DNA of 33,515 nucleotides, from contig JAJTFW010000042.1 of assembly GCA_021299095.1 (NCBI GenBank), positions 1 through 33,515 on the forward strand, given 5' to 3'. The notes below the pieces were generated by a model that saw only the letters and a list, made by a program, of their open reading frames with translations, was not told the origin of the DNA and ran no database searches. Made by a program: the position numbers and the translations under genes. Positions 3,717 through 19,617 of this stretch are shown here, one piece after another. How positions within the stretch are numbered: the first letter of the stretch is position 1; each line of letters begins with the position of its first letter. The DNA is from Sphingobacteriales bacterium. GTDB lineage: Bacteria; Bacteroidota; Bacteroidia; AKYH767-A; OLB10.

Positions 3717-4497
3717 TCACATTTGCACATCCGCAAGGCAGGTTGTTGCCTTGGCCGCAGAGTACATTCTCGTAGAGGCCTTGAAGTTTACACCAGACAC
3801 TATCCAACACAAGGGGTTGAATGACTTTGTAAGCCATGTGGATCGGAACAGCGAGGGGATTTTGGTAGAGGGGCTAAAGAATTTGATTCCGGAAGCCGGA
3901 TTTTTTACTGAAGAGGATACGCTTAATACGGGTTTAAAAGAGTGGACCTGGATAATCGATCCGCTTGATGGTACCACCAATTTCATTCACGGAATTCCTG
4001 CCTACTGCGTTAGCGTTGGTCTTTTATACAATCATATTCCCGTCGTTGGCATTGTTCATGAAGTGACTTCGGATAATTGCTATTACGCTTGGAAGGGTGG
4101 TGGAGCCTATTTGAATGGGAGTTTGATTTCCTGCTCCACCGTCGGCGATCTGAGTGAGGGCTTGCTTGCTACGGGATTTCCCTACACCGATTTCAAAAAC
4201 ACACAGGCGTATTTGGAGACCCTTGAGCGTTGCCTGCGCAGTTCACGGGGCGTACGCCGAATCGGCTCAGCTGCTCTCGATCTTGCTTATGTAGCCGAGG
4301 GGAAGTTCGTTGCATTTTTTGAGCAAGGACTAAAGCCCTATGATGTAGCCGGCGGCATCGTAATGGTAGAGGAGGCGGGTGGAACCGTCAGTGGCTTCTA
4401 TTCGGGCGACAATGCACTTTTCGATGGGCGAATTGTGGCGAGTAATGGACCTGTTCATGGACAACTGATCAGGTTGATCAGTCCGGACTTTCGTTAG
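3697..4497 (+). CDS. inositol monophosphatase family protein
   Basis: This is a Mg2+-dependent phosphatase of the IMPase/SuhB family, cytosolic, which hydrolyses inositol phosphate or related sugar phosphates. At 266 residues it has the family length. Metal ligands are visible: Glu72 in FFTEED, Asp88 and Asp91 in IIDPLDGTTNF, and Asp216 in KPYDVAGG (the usual WDVAAG motif with Tyr for Trp). The start at 3697 overlaps the end of lgt by 20 bp. Its TAG stop (4495-4497) overlaps the TAA stop of the convergent phoU gene, so no terminator separates them. The exact substrate cannot be told from sequence; a nucleotide-phosphate (CysQ-like) activity is less likely but possible. Confidence 0.88.
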   Translation: MIAPDLNHICTSARQVVALAAEYILVEALKFTPDTIQHKGLNDFVSHVDRNSEGILVEGLKNLIPEAGFFTEEDTLNTGLKEWTWIIDPLDGTTNFIHGIPAYCVSVGLLYNHIPVVGIVHEVTSDNCYYAWKGGGAYLNGSLISCSTVGDLSEGLLATGFPYTDFKNTQAYLETLERCLRSSRGVRRIGSAALDLAYVAEGKFVAFFEQGLKPYDVAGGIVMVEEAGGTVSGFYSGDNALFDGRIVASNGPVHGQLIRLISPDFR

Positions 4498-5168
4498 GCC
4501 TGTTTCTGCTCTCTTGATTTGTGTTTGAGCACTTTCGCTTCTATATAGAAAATGATTTCCTCTGAAATATTCTTGCACTGATCACCTACGCGTTCCAGTT
4601 TTCGTATAGAACTAAGGAGGTACAGGCTTTGATTAATTCGATCCGGATGATTCTTGATGAATTCAGCGACCGCCTGGTTCGCATTCATATTGATTTCGTC
4701 AAGCAATTCATCTTTTTTGAATACACTACGTGCAAGTCGAGTGTCTTCATTTTCAAAAGCCAGGCGAACCTCTTCCAGAATTTCAATACTTGTGTCGAAC
4801 ATCTCCATCATGCGAGTGGCCTCCAGTAAATCCTTTTCCGGTTCCATCTTTATGTTGAGCACAAATTGACAAATGCCATCTGCGATATCCCCGATCCGCT
4901 CAAGGTTCGAATTGATCTTCAAGCAAGCCAACACAAATCGCAGGTCAATCGCTACCGGGTTAAAAAGGGCGATGGTGTTTTCACAGTCCCTATCCACCTT
5001 TAATTCGAAGGCATTCACGCGTTTCTCATTCACCATGACTTCGCGGGCCAGATCCTTGTCGAGTCGAACAAGTGATTCGCGTGATTTTTCAAGCTGGGTA
5101 CGAACCAGGTGGAACATATCCAGCAGTTCGGTTTTTAGATTTTTAATTTCAGCTTCAAGGTGTGTCAT
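4494..5168 (-). CDS. phoU: phosphate transport system regulator PhoU
   Basis: PhoU is a cytosolic helical protein that links the PstSCAB transporter to the PhoR kinase and holds the Pho response off when phosphate is plentiful. The 224-residue protein is predicted all-helical with two PhoU repeats. Each has a family motif: NLERIGDIADGI near residue 90 and KLERVGDQCKNI near residue 190, which carry the acidic metal-cluster residues. It is the last gene of the pst operon, 35 bp after pstB. Its stop codon overlaps that of the convergent phosphatase gene at 4494-4497. Confidence 0.93.
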   Translation of the reverse strand: MTHLEAEIKNLKTELLDMFHLVRTQLEKSRESLVRLDKDLAREVMVNEKRVNAFELKVDRDCENTIALFNPVAIDLRFVLACLKINSNLERIGDIADGICQFVLNIKMEPEKDLLEATRMMEMFDTSIEILEEVRLAFENEDTRLARSVFKKDELLDEINMNANQAVAEFIKNHPDRINQSLYLLSSIRKLERVGDQCKNISEEIIFYIEAKVLKHKSREQKQA

Positions 5169-5203
5169 TGGAGTCGGGTTTAAGGACTAAAAGAAAAATT
5201 GAA

Positions 5204-5965
5204 TCAGCCGAAACGGCCGGTGATATAGTCTTGGGTGCGCGAATCTGTAGGGTTTGTAAATATTTTCTTTGTGGAGTCGCATTCAACAAGCTCGCCCAAA
5301 TAGAAAAATGCAGTTTTATCACTCACGCGACCAGCCTGCTGCATGTTGTGGGTGACGATGATGATAGTGAATTGCGATTTCAATTCATAGATTAACTCTT
5401 CAACTTTGGAAGTTGATATGGGGTCAAGGGCGGAAGCCGGTTCGTCCATGAGTAAGACGGATGGCTCCGTTGCAATGGCCCTGGCGATACAAAGACGCTG
5501 CTGTTGCCCGCCTGATAGGGCAAGAGCAGATTTTCTTAGGTTGTCTTTTACTTCATCCCAAAGGGCGGCTTGCCTAAGGCAGCGCTCTACTGTTTCATCG
5601 AGCAGATTCTTGTTGTTTACGCCACGAATTTTCAATCCATAAATGACATTTTCGTAAATGCTCTTCGGGAATGGATTGGGCTTCTGGAATACCATTCCTA
5701 CTTTTTTCCTGAGGTCTTCAACCCGCAAATCGCGTTGGTAAATGTCTCTCCCGTCAATAAGGATCTCTCCTTCTTTCCGAAATCCCTCAATCAAGTCGTT
5801 CATCCGATTATATAGGCGGAGAAAGGTTGATTTTCCGCATCCGGACGGGCCGATGAATGCAGTGACCGAGTGTTGTTCGACCGCCAGATTCACGTCTTTG
5901 ATTACATGCGTCTGGTCGTAAAACACATTTACATTCCTGGCTTCAAGTTTCTTGTGCATGTTCAA
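5204..5965 (-). CDS. pstB: phosphate ABC transporter ATP-binding protein PstB
   Basis: PstB is the ATPase of the high-affinity phosphate importer, on the cytosolic face of the PstC/PstA channel. The 253-residue protein has Walker [10 protein letters not shown] (39-47), the Q-loop region [12 protein letters not shown], the signature [14 protein letters not shown], Walker [13 protein letters not shown] and the H-loop [20 protein letters not shown] and the C-terminal tail that allocrine-specific PstB proteins share make the family call secure. It starts 6 bp after the pstA stop, consistent with one transcript. Confidence 0.96.
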
Positions 5966-5971
5966 TACAAA

Positions 5972-6829
5972 TTACCATTTAACTCTGCGTTGCCAGCGGT
6001 TTCTGAAGAAAATGGCAACGCCATTCATCAGAAATGTAACCATCAGCAGAATGATGATGGCAGCAGCTGAGTTGGTGATGAATCCCTGTTGGGGTCGAGA
6101 TACCCAATTGAATATCTGAATTGGAAGTACGGAGAATTCATCCATAGGACTGGAAGGTGCGAATGGGACATAGGCCAATGCACCCACTACAATCAACGGC
6201 GCGGCTTCACCGACTGCTCGGGATAAAGCCAAAATGACTCCGGTTAGAATTCCACCAACGGATGCCGGCAGCACTTGTAGCCAGATGGTTTGCCATTTGG
6301 TGGCGCCCATGGCTAACGAGGCTTCACGGAGGCTTTTGGGTACCGCCCGTACCGATTCTCGTGTGGCTACGATGATGATTGGAAGTATGAGAAGTGCTAG
6401 AGTAAGTGCACCCGCAAGAACACTTTGACCGAGTTTAAGTGTTCGTACAAACAATTCAAGTCCCAACAATCCGTAAATAATGGAGGGGATCCCAGCCAGG
6501 TTCGTGATGTTGATTTCGACCAGGTTGGCGAATCTGTTCTTTCGGCCGTATTCCTCCAGATAAAGCCCGGCCGAAACACCTACCGGTATAGCAATCGCCG
6601 CCGTTAAAAACAGGATCCAACAAGTCCCCATCAAGGCGGTGAAGATTCCAGCTCGCTCGGGGAAACGGGATGGAAGGTTGGTCAGGAAGTCAAGGTCTAT
6701 TCTGCCAATGCCTTTCAGTACAACGTCGCCCACAAAAACGGCAAGCATAATCAAGCCGAACAGGGTGCAAAACAACCCGAAAGCGCGGAATGCCTGGTCT
6801 TTAATCCGATTTGCAGTGACCTTATTCAT
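5972..6829 (-). CDS. pstA: phosphate ABC transporter permease PstA
   Basis: PstA is one of two inner-membrane channel subunits of the phosphate importer. The 285-residue protein shows six hydrophobic segments, with the first at residues 17-38. The cytoplasmic EAA loop that docks on PstB reads SLREASLAMGATKWQT. The motif GIPSIIYGLLGL is characteristic of PstA. Its ATG lies inside the end of pstC (8-bp overlap), so the two permease subunits are probably translationally coupled. Confidence 0.95.
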   Translation of the reverse strand: MNKVTANRIKDQAFRAFGLFCTLFGLIMLAVFVGDVVLKGIGRIDLDFLTNLPSRFPERAGIFTALMGTCWILFLTAAIAIPVGVSAGLYLEEYGRKNRFANLVEINITNLAGIPSIIYGLLGLELFVRTLKLGQSVLAGALTLALLILPIIIVATRESVRAVPKSLREASLAMGATKWQTIWLQVLPASVGGILTGVILALSRAVGEAAPLIVVGALAYVPFAPSSPMDEFSVLPIQIFNWVSRPQQGFITNSAAAIIILLMVTFLMNGVAIFFRNRWQRRVKW

Positions 6830-7697
6830 ACTTCATGCGGTAACGCTTTTTAAACCAGAAGCTGATGTTATTCAGAATGAACGTCAGGACAAAAAGGGAT
6901 ATGCCAGCAGCGAAAATGGTTCGGTACTCAAGAGAACCATGAGGCACATCGCCCATGCTGATTTGCACAATGAACGTGGTAATGGTTTGGATGGGTACAG
7001 TGGGGTCGGCAGTCAGGTTAGGCTGCATACCGGCAGCGATGGCAACAATCATCGTTTCACCTACTGCTCTGGAAATAGCGAGAATCACAGAGACCGTGAT
7101 TCCTGAAGATGCTGCAGGGACTAGTACCTGAAATGCAGTTTGCAGACGTGTTGCGCCCATTCCGTAGGAGGCCTCGCGCAAGGATTTGGGAACGGCATAC
7201 AGTGCATCCTGGCTCAAGGATGAAATGAGTGGAATAATCATGATTCCCATCACAAATCCAGCCCCGAGTGCATTGAATCCGGCAAGGCCGGGTATGAATC
7301 CCTGCAGGAATGGGGTCACTACAGTCAAGGCGAAATATCCGTAAACCACAGTCGGCACTGCGGCTAGAATTTCGAGGATGGGTTTTATGCTGAACGCGAA
7401 ACTTCGCGGAGCATACTCGTTAAGGTAGATAGCGATGGTGAGACCAATCGGTAAAGCAAAAAAAATGGCGATGAAACTGGTTAGTAGCGTGCCTGCCAAT
7501 AGTGGAAGTATGCCAAAGTGTTTCTCCGTAAACAAGGGAGTCCATTGCGTGTCTGTTAGGAAATCAGTGATCGGCACTTCAGAAAAAAACACCACGGCTT
7601 CACTGGCCAATGTGTACAGTATGCCGAGGGTGATGAGTATGGTCAGGCCTGCACAGGCTCCCAATACACCTACAATTAATCGCTCAGGAATTCGCAT
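6822..7697 (-). CDS. pstC: phosphate ABC transporter permease PstC
   Basis: PstC is the partner of PstA in the inner-membrane phosphate channel. The 291-residue protein has an N-terminal helix (residues 9-31) and five more membrane segments. The EAA loop reads SLREASYGMGATRLQT, and ILAAVPTVVYGYFAL is the PstC counterpart of the PstA loop. It follows pstS after a 69-bp gap that contains a stem-loop (7708-7746), a layout in which the binding protein can be made in excess over the membrane subunits. Confidence 0.95.
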   Translation of the reverse strand: MRIPERLIVGVLGACAGLTILITLGILYTLASEAVVFFSEVPITDFLTDTQWTPLFTEKHFGILPLLAGTLLTSFIAIFFALPIGLTIAIYLNEYAPRSFAFSIKPILEILAAVPTVVYGYFALTVVTPFLQGFIPGLAGFNALGAGFVMGIMIIPLISSLSQDALYAVPKSLREASYGMGATRLQTAFQVLVPAASSGITVSVILAISRAVGETMIVAIAAGMQPNLTADPTVPIQTITTFIVQISMGDVPHGSLEYRTIFAAGISLFVLTFILNNISFWFKKRYRMKYE

Positions 7698-7766: not shown

Positions 7767-8726
7767 TTACTTGGGCTTCTGAATAAATGCGGCGAATTTT
7801 TCCTGCTGACTCTTGTACTCGGCTTCCGTTAGAGGCACATATCCGACTGCTTTACTGAGTTCGGCTGCCGTCTGCAGGTAGAATTCCACGAAACGGACCA
7901 CTTCTTTACGCTGAGTAGCCTTTGAGTTCACATAGATGTAAAGGGGGCGTGACAGAGGGACATAGGTCTTGTTGATTACGGTTTCGAGACTGGGTGCAAT
8001 GGCGCCTGAACCATTGTCATCTTTTCCATCGTCGACTGGTACTGCCTTGAGCTTGGCTTTGTTTTCTTCATAATAGGCCAATCCGAAGAAGCCTAAAGCG
8101 AATTTGTCGCCCGCCACACCCTGAACAAGCACATTATCATCCTCACTTCCGGTATAATCGCCGCGGCTGCTGTGGCTTTTGCCCACAATGGCTTCAGTGA
8201 AATAATCATAGGTGCCCTATTCAACGCCGGCGCCATACAGGTGGATTTCCTCCTTGGGCCACTCTGGGCGCACCTGATTCCAGTACTTGATTTTATCCTG
8301 CGCTTCGGGCTCCCAGATTTTCTTTAGCTCTGCTACAGTAATTTCCTTGACCCAGTCGTTGGAAGGGTTTACGGCAACCACGAGTCCGTCATATGCAACT
8401 TCCAGCTCGACAAAATCAATCGAATTCAGTTTGCATTGCTCGGCTTCTTCCGATTTGATGGGTCTGGAGGCATCGTTGATGTCCGTTTCCCCCCGAGAGA
8501 ATTTTTTGAATCCACCACCTGTTCCTGAAAGCCCGACAGTGACTTTCACTTCAGGAGCTTCGGCGCGGAACTCTTCCGCTACGGCTTCAGAAATAGGATA
8601 AACGGTGCTTGATCCATCAATGTTGATGGTGCCGCTGATGACTTCAGTCGATTCATTTGTTTTTGAGTTGTTGCCGCCACAGGAGGCAAGAATGGTGGCT
8701 GCGACGATAAACAGGATTTTCTTCAT
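7767..8726 (-). pseudogene. pstS: phosphate ABC transporter substrate-binding lipoprotein PstS, in-frame amber codon
   Basis: PstS captures phosphate on the periplasmic side for PstCAB. The N-terminus is a lipoprotein signal ending TILASC, followed by the PstS opening [15 protein letters not shown] and the loop GTGGGFKKF. At codon 170 (8219-8217) the frame meets TAG. The same frame then continues without a shift as GTYDYF through SRGDYT, VQGVAGDKFALGFFG to the C-terminus at 7767, about 319 codons in total, the usual size. In homologues this point reads D-S-G-T; the Ser, Gly and Thr contact phosphate. Here Asp has become Glu and the Ser codon has become TAG. GTTGATAGTGGC is one plausible ancestral reading, changed by one inserted and one lost base. 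A GTG at 8186 could restart translation, but that product would lack the N-terminal lobe. The rest of the operon is intact, which argues for a sequence error. Confidence 0.8.
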
Positions 8727-8752
8727 GGTGTGTGTTCCAGTTTTTGGTGAGG

Positions 8753-8760
8753 CAAAAGGA
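8753..8760 (-). promoter_or_regulatory. pstS: possible pstS -7 promoter box (TCCTTTTG)
   Basis: This 7-of-8 match to TAnnTTTG lies 26 bp before the pstS ATG. With this box the -33 region falls at the downstream edge of the Pho-box-like repeats at 8787-8809, the arrangement expected of an activator-dependent promoter with a poor -33. Confidence 0.35.
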
Positions 8761-8786
8761 CTTTAATAGGATTACAGTTGCGTTTA

Positions 8787-8809
8787 CTTAATGTTATTAA
8801 AAGGTTAAG
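8787..8809 (-). promoter_or_regulatory. candidate Pho box upstream of pstS
   Basis: Read on the minus strand, heptamers CTTAACC (8809-8803) and AATAACA (8798-8792) start exactly 11 bp apart, with AT-rich spacers TTTT and TTAA. PhoB/PhoP-family regulators bind direct repeats with 11-bp spacing, and TTAACA-like hexamers are the known PhoP repeat of Bacillus. The site is about 60-80 bp before the pstS start, beside a gene pair encoding such a regulator. The binding role is inferred. Confidence 0.5.
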
Positions 8810-8961
8810 AATAGGGGCAACCACGCTTGTTAACCTGGTTGGGCCGATCATCTCTGAAGGCGCTCAAGGCTGTTTGCCGTTTTTTCGCGCCCATTCTTAT
8901 CGAAATCGGGTGGTTTCTTTGTAACAGGTTGAATTACAGTGTGGGACTCTTTTAATCCTCA

Positions 8962-8983
8962 TTTAACTTTGCCGTAACATTGC
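8962..8983 (+). promoter_or_regulatory. candidate Pho box and -7 box upstream of the response regulator gene
   Basis: Heptamers TTTAACT (8962-8968) and CGTAACA (8973-8979) are 11 bp apart and each is followed by TTGC. The exact -7 element TAACTTTG (8964-8971) overlaps the first repeat. If both are real, regulator binding here would block rather than aid this promoter. A weaker box CACTTTTG (8989-8996) lies just downstream and could be the regulated promoter instead. Confidence 0.35.
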
Positions 8984-9013
8984 TTCCTCACTTTTGGGCC
9001 AACAAAGAGCCAA

Positions 9014-9697
9014 ATGTCGAACGAAACCGTAAAAATCCTGCTTGTTGACGATGAGCCGGATATTCTGGAGTTCATGGAGTATAACCTTCGAAAGGAAGGG
9101 TATGAGGTGTTTTTGGCACGAAATGGCAAAGAGGCCCTTGAGATAGCACGAAAAGAACGTCCTCAGCTGGTGATTCTTGACATTATGATGCCTGTTATGG
9201 ATGGGATTGAGGCCTGCAGGCACCTGCGTGAGATGCCGGAATTACAGCATACCATGATCACTTTTCTGACGGCACGCAATGAGGAATACTCGCAAATTGC
9301 AGGTTTTGATGTTGGAGCCGATGATTACATTTCTAAACCGGTGAAACCACGCATTTTGGTTTCACGAATAAAGGCCTTGCTTCGCCGTGTAAACGGAGTG
9401 CAGCCCCAGGCCCCGGTCATTCAAATCGGGAATCTGCGCATCGACCGCGAAAAGTATTTGGTGTATAAAGATGAGATTCCGATCTCTTTTCCCAGGAAGG
9501 AGTTTGAGTTGCTATCACTGCTAACCTCAAAGCCCGGCAAGGTGTTTACGCGTGAAGATATCCTCTCGCGTGTGTGGGGGAACGATATTATCGTAGGTGA
9601 TCGTACCATCGATGTGCATATCCGGAAGATTCGTGAAAAGCTCGGCGATGAGTCAATCAAGACCATCAAGGGGATCGGATACAAGTTCGACATCTGA
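9014..9697 (+). CDS. phoB: PhoB-type response regulator (OmpR family)
   Basis: This cytosolic DNA-binding regulator is activated by phosphorylation from the histidine kinase encoded next to it. The 227-residue protein has a receiver domain (about 6-120) with acidic pair Asp12/Asp13, phospho-acceptor Asp56 in VILDIMMP, and the conserved Lys in ISKPVKP. The C-terminal winged helix (about 130-227) has the expected ending RTIDVHIRKIREKLG, then IKGIGYKFD. Adjacency to the divergent pst operon and Pho-box-like repeats supports a phosphate-starvation role; sequence alone does not separate PhoB from other OmpR-family members. Confidence 0.85.
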   Translation: MSNETVKILLVDDEPDILEFMEYNLRKEGYEVFLARNGKEALEIARKERPQLVILDIMMPVMDGIEACRHLREMPELQHTMITFLTARNEEYSQIAGFDVGADDYISKPVKPRILVSRIKALLRRVNGVQPQAPVIQIGNLRIDREKYLVYKDEIPISFPRKEFELLSLLTSKPGKVFTREDILSRVWGNDIIVGDRTIDVHIRKIREKLGDESIKTIKGIGYKFDI

Positions 9698-9751: not shown

Positions 9752-10801
9752 ATGGGTGAACGTAAGGCCTTACTGACCGGATCCGGTGTGTCTGTTGTAA
9801 TGGCTACAGTGCTCACCGCTACTGTTAGGCTACTTTTCTTTGTTACTGGTTTTTCGTTCGAGTGGATTTATTACCTCCTGTTTTTTACGATTGTATTTGT
9901 CGTTTCTATTGTTACATCCAAATACTTGCATGCACGGTATGTCCGCGAGAGTTTGCAGGATATTTACCACCAGATCCAAGAATTGCGGGGAACAAAAGTC
10001 GTTAGGCCCGCACCATCCGATAGTGTGCCTGCATTATATGCTGAAATCAGTCGTATTCTGAATGACTGGAACAAAGAGTCGCGTTCCGAAATTGATCAGA
10101 TGAAGCAGGTGGAAACCTATCGACGTGATTTTTTGAGTAACGTATCGCACGAGTTGAAGACGCCGATTTTTTCTGTACAAGGATTTGTCCACACGCTGAT
10201 TGACGGCGGAATTGACGATCCGGATATCAACATGCACTACCTGTCAAAGGCTTCCAAAGGTATTGATCGGCTTATCCACATTGTTGAGGACCTTGAGTCG
10301 ATTTCACGTCTTGAAGCCGGAGAGTTGATTTTGGATAAACGGACCTTCGATATCCTGGAACTTGTTTCTGATGTATTCGATTCGCTAGAGTTGCAGGCCA
10401 GGGAAAAACAGGTGTCCTTTCAATCCTCATCCAGCACTGGCGAACGACTCTATGTGTATGCCGACAAGGACCTGATAAGGCAGGTGCTTGTAAATCTGAT
10501 TGTCAATTCAGTGAAGTATGGAGTCAAAGGCGGCGCAACTATTGTTTCGGTCAGCCCTGTGGGAGAGAAAGTGGTGGTTGAGGTATCAGACAACGGGATT
10601 GGAATTGAGAAACGCCATTTGCCCAGGCTATTCGAACGTTTTTACAGGGTCGACAAAAGCCGGTCACGTGAGCAGGGCGGTACCGGGCTTGGGTTGGCCA
10701 TTGTCAAGCACATCCTTGAGGCACACAACGAATCCATCAGTGTGGACAGTGAACCCGGCAAGGGTACTATTTTTGTGTTTTCGCTACTGCAAAGTCGCTG
10801 A
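9752..10801 (+). CDS. phoR: PhoR-type sensor histidine kinase
   Basis: This inner-membrane kinase is the likely partner of the preceding regulator. The 349-residue protein has two adjacent membrane helices (about 12-33 and 36-56) with almost no periplasmic loop, then a helical linker of about 70 residues. The dimerisation domain carries phospho-acceptor His133 in NVSHELKTPIF. The ATPase domain shows the N-box NLIVNSVKYG, G1 VSDNGIGI, the F-box LFERFYRVD and G2 GGTGLGLAIVKHI. The absence of a periplasmic sensor fits PhoR, which senses phosphate through PstSCAB-PhoU. I see no clear PAS domain, so the linker is shorter than in E. coli PhoR. Confidence 0.85.
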   Translation: MGERKALLTGSGVSVVMATVLTATVRLLFFVTGFSFEWIYYLLFFTIVFVVSIVTSKYLHARYVRESLQDIYHQIQELRGTKVVRPAPSDSVPALYAEISRILNDWNKESRSEIDQMKQVETYRRDFLSNVSHELKTPIFSVQGFVHTLIDGGIDDPDINMHYLSKASKGIDRLIHIVEDLESISRLEAGELILDKRTFDILELVSDVFDSLELQAREKQVSFQSSSSTGERLYVYADKDLIRQVLVNLIVNSVKYGVKGGATIVSVSPVGEKVVVEVSDNGIGIEKRHLPRLFERFYRVDKSRSREQGGTGLGLAIVKHILEAHNESISVDSEPGKGTIFVFSLLQSR

Positions 10802-11946: not shown

Positions 11947-11983
11947 AAATGAAAGAGGCCGGTACTACCGGCCTCTTTCATTT
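11947..11983. terminator. bidirectional hairpin terminator between the agmatinase gene and clpB
   Basis: This is a perfect 18-bp inverted repeat around a single central base (11965), with core GAAAGAGGCCGGTA. A-rich and T-rich flanks serve both directions. The last bases of the clpB reading frame (stop 11984-11982) lie inside the right arm, so the hairpin closes both convergent genes. Confidence 0.85.
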
Positions 11984-14442
11984 AAGCTTCTGCAACAGCT
12001 TCGCCCATGTTTTTAAATGTGAAGTTGTTCAGGGTATCGATATCGATTTCGATGTGTTCTTCCTTGTGGATTGCACCGGATAAAATTTGCTTGCTCAGCT
12101 CATTCATAATTTTTTTCTGAATGACACGCTTCAGTGGTCGTGCTCCGAACTGCGGGTCGTATCCGAGTTGAGCAAGCCATTCGGTAGCTTCTGGGCTTAT
12201 GCTGATGTATATATCATTCTCCTCAAGTCGTTTGGCCAATTGTCCGAATTGCATGCGAACAATGTCTTGTATCTGATGCCGGTCGAGTGGGCTGAACATG
12301 ATGATTTCATCAATGCGGTTTAGGAATTCAGGTCGAATCGACTTTTTAAGTAACTCAAAAACCTCAAGACGCGATTTTGCAAGAATGCTTTCACGGTTCT
12401 CCTCATCGATACTGGCCATGTTGTCTTGAATCAGGTAGGCGCCGATGTTCGAGGTCATGATGATAATGGTATTCTTGAAATTGGCGGTCCTCCCCTTATT
12501 GTCAGTCAATCTGCCATCATCAAGTACCTGCAACAGGATGTTGAATACATCCGGATGAGCTTTTTCAATCTCATCCAATAGGATTACAGAATAGGGTCGA
12601 CGTCGTACGGCCTCTGTAAGTTGTCCGCCTTCGTCGTAGCCAACATAACCGGGAGGTGCGCCTATGAGTCGGCTTACGCTGTGCCTCTCTTGGTATTCGC
12701 TCATATCTATTCGTGTCATCGCGTTGTCGTCGTTGAACAGAAATTCTGCTAGTGCCTTGGCCAATTCAGTTTTTCCGACTCCGGTTGTTCCCAAGAAAAT
12801 GAATGAACCGATTGGTCGTCGTACGTCCTGCAATCCCGCCCTGCTGCGCCTTACTGCATCGGATAATGCTGCAATCGCATCCTCCTGACCTACTACGCGT
12901 TTGTGAAGTTCGGTTTCGAGATGAAGCAGCTTTTCGCGTTCACTTTGTAGCATACGCTTCAGTGGTATCCCTGTCCAGCGGCTGACAACTTCGGCAATGT
13001 CTTCACTGTCGACCTCTTCTTTGATCATCGCCTTGTTTTGCTGCGCATCGATTAGTTTGGTCTGACATTCTGCGAGAGTAGCTTCGGCTTCTTTGATTTT
13101 CCCATAGCGTATCTCGGCAACTTTTCCATAGTCACCGGCCCGCTCGGCCTGGTCAGCTTCCGCTTTGAGGATTTCAATGCTTTCGCGAGTTTGTGTGATG
13201 GTATCTATCACTAGTTTTTCTGATTCCCACCTGCTCTTTATCCGGCTTCGCTCTTCGTTGAGGTTGGCAAGGGTTTCACTGAGCTCTCCGAGCTTTTTTT
13301 CATCTCCCTCACGCTTAATTGCAGCCCGTTCGATTTCAACCTGCATGATGCGGCGTTGAATTTCATCCAATTCTTCCGGCACACTATCCATTTCCAGCCT
13401 GAGTTTCGCTGCCGCCTCATCAATTAGGTCGATGGCTTTATCGGGCAGGAATCGCGCAGTGATGTAACGATCGCTCAGTTCCGCTGCCGCACTCGTTTAG
13501 TGTTGTTGCGCCAATGGCGCGTAATTCACCACGGGCCAAAGCTGGTTTTAGGATGTTTGCTGCATCCATCGCACCTTCACCACCACCGCCAGCACCTACC
13601 AGCGTGTGGATTTCATCGATGAATAATACGATGTCACCTTCAGCCCCAATCACTTCCTTGACAACGGATTTTAATCGCTCTTCGAATTCGCCTTTGTATT
13701 TGGCTCCTGCGATTAATGCACCCATGTCGAGGGAATAGATCACTTTGGACTTCAGGTTCTCGGGTACGTCACCGTTGATGATGCGGTGCGCGAGCCCCTC
13801 TGCGATTGCTGTTTTACCTACACCCGGTTCGCCGATTAGGATCGGGTTGTTTTTTGTGCGTCGCGACAAGATCTGCAATACGCGTCTGATTTCTTCATCG
13901 CGGCCAATGACCGGGTCTAGCTTTCCCTCGTGAGCGAGTTGATTTAAGTTCCGTGCATATTTTTCGAGGGTATTATACGACTCTTCGGCTCCTGAACTTG
14001 TAGCACGAGAGCCCTTTCGGATTTCACGAATAGCAGACCTGATACGACCAGCATCTGCTCCGGCTTGTTTCAGTGCGTCGGACACTCCATCACCTGCGCT
14101 CATCAGTGTTAGTAGAAGATGTTCGACAGTTACAAACTCGTCTTTGAACTCACGAGTCATTTGCAGTGCGTTTTGTAATGCCTGTTGCAGTTTTGTTGAT
14201 AGGTAGGGTTGTCCCCCACTTACTTTAGCATATCCGTTCATCACTGCATCAAGCGATCGGCGTATATCGTTGAGGTTGACCTCGGCTTTCTTCAGCAATA
14301 GGGGTACAACTTCCTCCTCATTTTCAATCAGAGCCTTCAGTACGTGACCGGTTTCGATGGCTTGGTGACCCAGTTGCATGGCCATCCCCTGTGCCTGTTG
14401 AACGGCTTCCTGCGCCTTTACAGTGAATTTGTTGAGGTTCAT
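11982..14442 (-). pseudogene. clpB: ATP-dependent disaggregase ClpB, internal deletion and frameshift
   Basis: ClpB is a hexameric AAA+ chaperone that pulls apart protein aggregates with DnaK. The first piece (14442-13492) has the Clp N-domain (1-145), Walker [10 protein letters not shown] (204-212), Walker [11 protein letters not shown] and ends at sensor 1, GATTLNE. It then shifts and stops shortly after, at 13438. The second piece is open in another frame from 13490 to 11982. It starts [14 protein letters not shown] and includes [22 protein letters not shown], the coiled-coil M domain, Walker A GTTGVGKTE, Walker B VILLDEIEKAHPDV and the C-terminal D2 domain. About 53 residues between sensor 1 and AAAELSDRY, including the arginine-finger segment ALERRF, are absent, so about 158 bp are missing at 13491. 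With them the protein would have about 870 residues, the normal size. As written the product is non-functional. Start ATG 14442 matches family N-termini. Confidence 0.85.
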
Positions 14443-18797: not shown

Positions 18798-19617
18798 TCA
18801 GTCTTTTGCGCCGTGTTGAAAATGTTCTATCGCCTTGCGAACACTCCCTGTTTCTTTCAGGAGGGTGGAGGCATTCTCGAGGTTTAAGCCTGTGGCATCC
18901 ATCACCATGCGCGTGCCGCGGTCAATTAGCTTGTTGTTGCTAAGTTGCATATCAACCATGCGGTTTCCCTTAACTCGACCCAGCCTGATCATCAGCGTAG
19001 TTGATATCATGTTGAGTACCAACTTCTGTGCGGTGCCGGCCTTCATGCGGGTGCTGCCTGTTACGAATTCAGGACCTGTTGCTACTACGACAGGGAATTC
19101 AGCGGCTTCAGCAGCCGGACTCCCCGGGTTGCAGGTAATACATCCTGTCAAGTTTCCATTGCGGCGTGCATGTGCCAGGCAACTGACTACGTAAGGTGTT
19201 GTCCCCGATGCTGCGATGCCAATCAGTGAGTCGAGATCGCCGAAGGCGTGCTCCTGTAAATCGGTCCAGCCTGGGATTATCCTCTGCAGACTCAACTGCT
19301 TTGCGGATGGCTGAATCACCGCCTGCAATGAGTCCGATTACGAGTCCGTGAGGAACCCCGTACGTCGGTGGGCATTCTGACGCATCAAGGATTCCCAAGC
19401 GGCCGCTGGTGCCAGCCCCGATGTAAAAAAGCCTTCCGCCCTGCTGCATTCGGGGAAGGACGGCCTCTACAAGTTGTTCTATTTGTGGCAAAGCTTTCTG
19501 CACTGCGATTGCAACTCCATGGTCTTCATCGTTGATGGCAACGAGCAATTCACGAACCGATTTCTGTTCGAGGTTATCGTGCCTCGATTCCGATTCGGTG
19601 AGCCGTTCAATTGCCAT
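18798..19617 (-). pseudogene. murQ: N-acetylmuramic acid 6-phosphate etherase MurQ, frameshifted
   Basis: MurQ splits the lactyl ether of MurNAc-6-phosphate to give GlcNAc-6-phosphate in cell-wall recycling (cytosol). The first piece from ATG 19617 has [16 protein letters not shown] and the SIS-domain motif [16 protein letters not shown], whose Glu matches a catalytic residue, then CPPTYGVP and [16 protein letters not shown]. After GAT-AAT-CCC (about 19273) the sequence leaves frame. The other frame carries [29 protein letters not shown], the signature TGSTRMKAGTAQK and the C-terminus at 18798. Seven bases separate the Asp and Gly codons where homologues have about four codons, so about five bases appear missing near 19272-19278. 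With them restored the protein would have about 275 residues, a normal size. ATG 19617 is 7 bp after the E1 stop, so it is probably co-transcribed. Confidence 0.85.

Follow-up and report, generated by a model that had tools for sequence, protein, structure and literature searches.

Two arrays of 11-bp direct repeats with a TTAAC core lie in the intergenic region between pstS and a divergently transcribed phoB-type regulator gene of a Sphingobacteriales bacterium. We consider these arrays, with a probability of roughly 0.9, to be PhoB operators (Pho boxes) that activate the divergent pst and phoBR units under low phosphate. The repeats are conserved in relatives with a sharp 11-bp period, recur at other phosphate genes and are in register with the -7 promoter element of Bacteroidota.

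Gene organization of the pst-phoBR locus

The window, that is, the whole 33.5-kb stretch of DNA analyzed, is contig 38 of a 2.5-Mb genome assembly (93 contigs, 96% complete). On the minus strand, the gene order is pstS-pstC-pstA-pstB-phoU, and on the plus strand a PhoB-type regulator gene is followed by a PhoR-type kinase gene. The genes concerned are as follows.

4494..7697 (-): pstC, pstA, pstB and phoU, the remainder of the pst operon; NCBIfam equivalog matches above cut-offs
7767..8726 (-): pstS, for the phosphate-binding protein; its reading frame contains a TAG at 8217-8219; TIGR02136 match of 175 bits for the portion ahead of the TAG
9014..9697 (+): phoB-type response regulator of the OmpR family, 227 aa; best NCBIfam match, PhoB
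9752..10801 (+): phoR-type sensor histidine kinase, 349 aa; PnpS/WalK/PhoR-type kinase matches below cut-offs

The PF12849 match of pstS spans the in-frame TAG, and the gene was also aligned with its relatives, in which a conserved Ser stands at the position of the TAG (YGAGVE-S-GTYDYF). Two more conserved genes of the window show apparent frameshifts, each probably caused by an indel error: clpB (11982-14442, minus strand) is read in two frames with a break near 13391-13438, and a murQ-like gene (18798-19617, minus strand) in two overlapping frames (19108-19328). Because of these frameshifts, an assembly or sequencing error is a likelier source of the TAG than a dead gene. Elsewhere, after ExbD-like genes (L170 2964-3905, G000:C72), lies a gene for another PBP_like_2 protein that is distant from PstS (25% identity), and similar second copies were found in many genomes of the order.

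The regulator scored 220.3 bits against the NCBIfam model TIGR02154 (curated cut-off, 296.2) and 216.9 bits against the Bacteroidota PhoB model NF053854 (cut-off, 270). Since both scores are under the PhoB cut-offs, the protein is assigned as PhoB by its best family, its gene order and its regulon. A structure-sequence search with the regulator gave family-level matches only. Matches to the regulator at E<=1e-40 were present in 34 of the 42 genomes of the order, and a phoR-type kinase gene follows phoB in most relatives. A PhoR-type kinase partner and linkage to pst are found both in the window and in relatives.

In many relatives, the regulator gene is again divergent to the pst cluster, and what comes first varies: a TonB-dependent receptor gene with a lipoprotein gene, a porin-like gene, or pstS. 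In same-genus relatives (L141 and L142), the receptor and lipoprotein genes lie between pstS and phoB; the window gap (8727-9013) holds neither, so that pstS adjoins the phoB-divergent promoter region. The same receptor-lipoprotein layout was seen in a Flavobacterium contig, and the lipoproteins are homologous. The layout of the phoBR cluster of F. johnsoniae thus recurs in relatives of the genome studied here. Phosphate depletion strongly induces these F. johnsoniae receptor and lipoprotein genes, which belong to the phoBR operon (PMC8115612).

Repeat units and likely -7 elements in the window

Three 11-bp units were identified on the phoB side and four on the pstS side, each array followed by a likely -7 element.

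8951..8957 (+): TTTAATC, Pho-box unit 1 in the phoB promoter, one 11-bp step ahead of unit 2
8962..8968 (+): TTTAACT, Pho-box unit 2 in the phoB promoter
8973..8979 (+): CGTAACA, Pho-box unit 3 in the phoB promoter
8989..8996 (+): CACTTTTG, likely phoB -7 element, differing from TAnnTTTG at one position
8803..8809 (-): CTTAACC, Pho-box unit 1 in the pst promoter, which with the following T gives CTTAACCT
8792..8798 (-): AATAACA, Pho-box unit 2 in the pst promoter
8781..8787 (-): GTAAACG, Pho-box unit 3 in the pst promoter; the match of model R1 (see below) covers 8779-8810
8770..8776 (-): TGTAATC, degenerate Pho-box unit 4 in the pst promoter, in step with the 11-bp grid of the other units
8753..8760 (-): TCCTTTTG, likely pst operon -7 element, differing from TAnnTTTG at one position

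A preliminary description of this DNA had reported one pair of repeats on each side, 11 bp apart, with TTTT between the pstS-side units CTTAACC and AATAACA and TTGC after each of the regulator-side units TTTAACT and CGTAACA. Both pairs are present at the positions listed, together with three units on the same 11-bp grid that it had missed (TTTAATC on the plus strand, GTAAACG and TGTAATC on the minus strand). Its range of 8787-8983 was slightly off, as the pstS-side repeats span 8809 down to 8770. On the phoB side, unit 1 lines up with the leading unit in most close relatives, and the -7 element CACTTTTG starts 10 nt past the last TTAAC-like core. On the pst side, the -7 element TCCTTTTG is 21 nt past the core of unit 3 and 10 nt past the core of unit 4, which takes up the grid step between unit 3 and this element.

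Conservation of the repeats and their 11-bp period

We scored three TTAAC units per site (maximum 15, threshold >=12) and compared spacings of 6-22 bp in the same sequences. Upstream of phoB, 38 of 74 Bacteroidota loci reached the threshold at the 11-bp spacing, against 0-6 loci with any other spacing between 6 and 21 bp and 15 at the harmonic spacing of 22 bp; these loci are related and not independent, and the counts compare spacings rather than give probabilities. Roughly half of the phoB loci stayed below the three-unit score, and most of these are distant. At the heads of pst operons, whether linked to phoB or not, the threshold was reached at 11 bp in 16 of 22 cases and at other spacings below 22 bp in 0-4. 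Among 228 control upstream regions, 13 scored >=12 and four scored >=13, and all four of the latter belong to genes of pst or phoBR clusters.

In most genomes of the same family, the three-unit phoB array ends 32-37 bp ahead of the start codon, as in the examples CTTTAATATTGGATTAACAATTTGGTAATAG and GCTTAATCCTGACTTAACAATTTCATAACAG. The consensus unit is TTAACATTnnn, in which TTAAC and ATT are conserved and the remaining positions are near background. TTAAC was used to select the sites; ATT was not, and its conservation is therefore unselected. With three and four direct repeat units and a period of 11 bp, the window arrays have the build of a Pho box, which calls for two such units or more, each of about seven conserved and four variable positions. 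The core is TTAAC, not the CTGTCAT of the E. coli-type Pho box.

The 11-bp TTAAC repeats at phoB and pst are kept across the order and in other Bacteroidota. The preliminary description, which had made conservation upstream of pstS in relatives one of its tests, is borne out in this respect upstream of phoB and of pst operons. It was also right about the shared T-A-A-C core and the PhoB/PhoP-type spacing, as the period of 11 bp holds in the window and in relatives. Its consensus TTAACn-N5-nTAACA is replaced by TTAACATTnnn repeated three or four times.

Genome scans and the predicted Pho regulon

Three models were used for the scans: R1, a sequence-only model built from 33 sites; R2, the model without the sites of the window; and R3, the sites of R1 respaced to 10 bp. 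In the genome studied here, R1 matched the two window sites, followed by the ppk1 operon, a phosphate-selective porin gene (twice) and a secreted-protein gene. With R2, the top rank still went to the phoB site of the window (8951-8982; E 0.0075); the pstS site was fourth (E 0.11), and the ppk1 operon and a Porin_O_P gene took the ranks between them. Over the 42 genomes of the order, R1 gave 74 matches at E<=0.1 in 33 genomes, some of which are training sites; R3 gave 14 matches in 11 genomes and none in the genome studied here.

Untrained matches in relatives were located at genes for porin O/P, Ppk1, Metallophos_2 (PlcP-like) proteins, another calcineurin-like phosphoesterase and DUF47 proteins. 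Other matches have no obvious link to phosphate, and some of them will be due to chance. The PiT-DUF47 operon of the genome studied here carries a three-mismatch array 38 bp ahead of its assumed start. The model scans extended the sites from phoB and pst to ppk1, porin O/P, DUF47/PiT and PlcP-like genes, so that sites stand ahead of phosphate-acquisition genes as well as of the regulator gene. Because TTAAC is nearly palindromic, orientation is weakly determined at some of these sites, notably at the porin and ppk1 genes of the same genome: the porin promoter repeats score 14 in the reverse orientation versus 12, and the ppk1 match is on the strand opposite to the gene.

A protein of about 117 aa is encoded between the Pho-box match and ppk1 in this genome (L174 1767-2126) and in a relative (G021, L224 1121-1474); the former was without a Pfam match. 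Two tandem genes (L172 2159-4550; G000:C53:15658-18049) encode secreted proteins of an uncharacterized family starting ...NGLExVIVExYYV..., each with an 11-bp TTAAC array about 64 bp upstream. Such arrays recur at NGLE-family genes within one genus and in the genome studied here, and some members have a T9SS tail. As just six of 37 upstream regions reach the combined score, the NGLE family is a candidate new member of the Pho regulon.

It was also considered that the arrays are operators of another OmpR/PhoB-family regulator, for example an ArcA- or RprY-like protein, that controls phosphate genes. Direct repeats of 10-11 bp are used by many members of this family, in some cases with TTAA cores, and a first look gave 31 candidate stretches for the family in the genome studied here. 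In addition, the Riemerella PhoP study likens its motif to that of E. coli ArcA (PMC9603813). However, the sites occur in the promoter of this very regulator across many Bacteroidota, and elsewhere at phosphate genes, and we regard another regulator as unlikely.

Counts of short patterns

The pattern TAAC-N7-TAAC occurs twice in the window, both times in the pstS-phoB gap, and two of the 12 TAAC-N7-TAACA sites in the 2.5-Mb genome fall within this 287-bp gap. Genome-wide, the latter pattern is not enriched (12 sites versus 28 for the reversed control). A three-unit pattern with at most one mismatch has two genome sites, one of which is the pstS-side array. As the pattern was picked after the sequence had been viewed, the conservation tests weigh more than these counts, and because the short pattern is unenriched, significance must come from conservation. 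NTAACN7TAACA was rejected as a definition of the regulon; it is too weak, being unenriched and having other genome matches without clear phosphate genes. A looser three-unit pattern with three mismatches gave mostly noise (284 sites versus 491 for the reversed control).

TTAAC is a simple sequence, and the intergenic region has a G+C content of 43% against 50% in the window; together with the lack of genome-wide enrichment, this would suit chance repeats in an A+T-rich region, chosen after the fact. Chance is nevertheless very unlikely, being already contradicted by the spacing and conservation tests: the 11-bp period is sharp and missing at 10 or 12 bp, the near-fixed distance is kept in relatives, and control genes are almost without arrays.

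Register with the -7 element

The -7 element of flavobacterial sigma-A promoters is TAnnTTTG at -12 to -5 (PMC9723704). Among 53 arrays, TAnnTTTG started 10 nt after the third TTAAC core in 10 and 21 nt after it in 15, so that 25 of the 53 have a core promoter element at one of these two offsets; the reversed control pattern occurred at most four times at any offset. Counted upstream from the -7 element, TTAAC units peak at 15, 26, 37 and 48 nt, and the pattern is clearest for pst operons; the control of this -7-centered plot included motif-fetched loci and has its own peak at 37, and cleaner controls are those of the 228 upstream regions and of the grid shift. When the grid was shifted by 1-5 bp, the number of fitting promoters fell from 16 to 0-2 of 96. 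The untrained PlcP-like promoters fit the grid, with perfect -7 elements (TACTTTTG/TATTTTTG) in three genomes. At the ppk1, porin and PiT promoters of the genome studied here, an in-register -7 element was looked for and was absent. Judged from the sequences, the boxes and the promoter often appear to share one 11-bp grid.

That the repeats are themselves core promoter elements (-33/-7) of overlapping promoters is hardly credible: the unit TTTAACTTTG holds a perfect TAnnTTTG (8964-8971) and the units overlap the -33 region, but core elements would not repeat with an 11-bp period as far as 48 nt ahead of a TAnnTTTG element distinct from them, and control promoters are without the array.

Proposed mechanism and significance

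We infer that PhoB binds these arrays, that it activates and does not repress, that the signal is phosphate and that there is a contact with the sigma factor. When phosphate is scarce, PhoR would phosphorylate PhoB, which would line up head to tail along both arrays, on their 11-bp units of the TTAACATTnnn type. Bound PhoB would then activate the divergent pstS-pstCAB-phoU and phoBR units, its own operon included. Both autoregulation and a phosphate regulon are suggested because sites are present at the promoter of the regulator and at phosphate genes. With the last unit 10 nt ahead of a TAnnTTTG-type -7 element, the array may take the place of the -33 element, PhoB replacing or covering this region. 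The last PhoB subunit would then lie beside the primary sigma factor and could assist in its recruitment, the role that PhoB plays in E. coli. Induction at low phosphate by the arrays is suggested only by analogy with the syntenic genes of F. johnsoniae (PMC8115612).

A wider generalization, to which we give slightly better than even odds, is a Bacteroidota-wide Pho operator of three to four TTAACATTnnn units on one 11-bp grid with TAnnTTTG, in which PhoB substitutes for the -33 contact of the unusual primary sigma factor and whose regulon includes uncharacterized members such as the NGLE secreted family. The period, the consensus and the distance to the -7 element would allow Pho regulons to be predicted from the sequences of environmental and host-associated Bacteroidota, even where a genome is known from metagenomes alone. 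Such predictions are testable by mutation of single units. The phosphate-control code of Bacteroidota would thus become readable from sequence.

Comparison with known systems

The Pho-box type itself is already known, and its register with the Bacteroidota -7 element is probably new to specialists. A literature search, with most subscription literature outside its scope, found neither an operator repeat structure nor a promoter position for Bacteroidota. The PhoP box of Bacillus subtilis consists of TTAACA repeats with a period of about 11 bp, in another phylum and with another core promoter. The Pho box of E. coli PhoB contains two 11-bp direct repeats with a CTGTCAT core, 10 bp upstream of the -10 element (PMC4415409, PMC1906773). 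The arrays described here share with it the 11-bp head-to-tail direct repeats and the 10-nt gap to the core promoter element; they differ in having TTAAC instead of CTGTCAT, three or four units, and TAnnTTTG instead of the sigma-70 -10 element.

Phosphate regulation in Bacteroidota has so far been studied by expression and by one DAP-seq study (PMC9603813). The preliminary description had called Pho boxes poorly described in this phylum, which holds, but they are not undescribed: in that study, PhoP of Riemerella anatipestifer gave 583 peaks with TTTAACA as the most conserved motif, likened to ArcA, and was shown by EMSA to bind upstream of its own regulator operon (PMC9603813). The phylum, the core and autoregulatory binding (by EMSA there, predicted here) are common to both systems. 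The 11-bp register, the -7 geometry and a phosphate regulon are not described in the portion available (PMC9603813). PhoB of Bacteroides fragilis, likewise a member of Bacteroidota acting at a pst promoter, binds the pstC promoter directly, as EMSA showed, and pst expression depends on it; a consensus sequence for it was not found in the accessible part of the report (PMC3547664).

The cyanobacterial SphR Pho box (CTTAACCT) is made up of at least three 8-bp repeats with 3-bp linkers (PMC1906773). The 11-bp period, the presence of three or more units and the TTAAC core are the same here, and the first pstS-side unit is identical to the SphR consensus. SphR and the regulator of the window are relatives only at the family level. 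In contrast to the SphR box, the following positions favor ATT in the arrays described here, and the arrays are in register with the Bacteroidota element TAnnTTTG.
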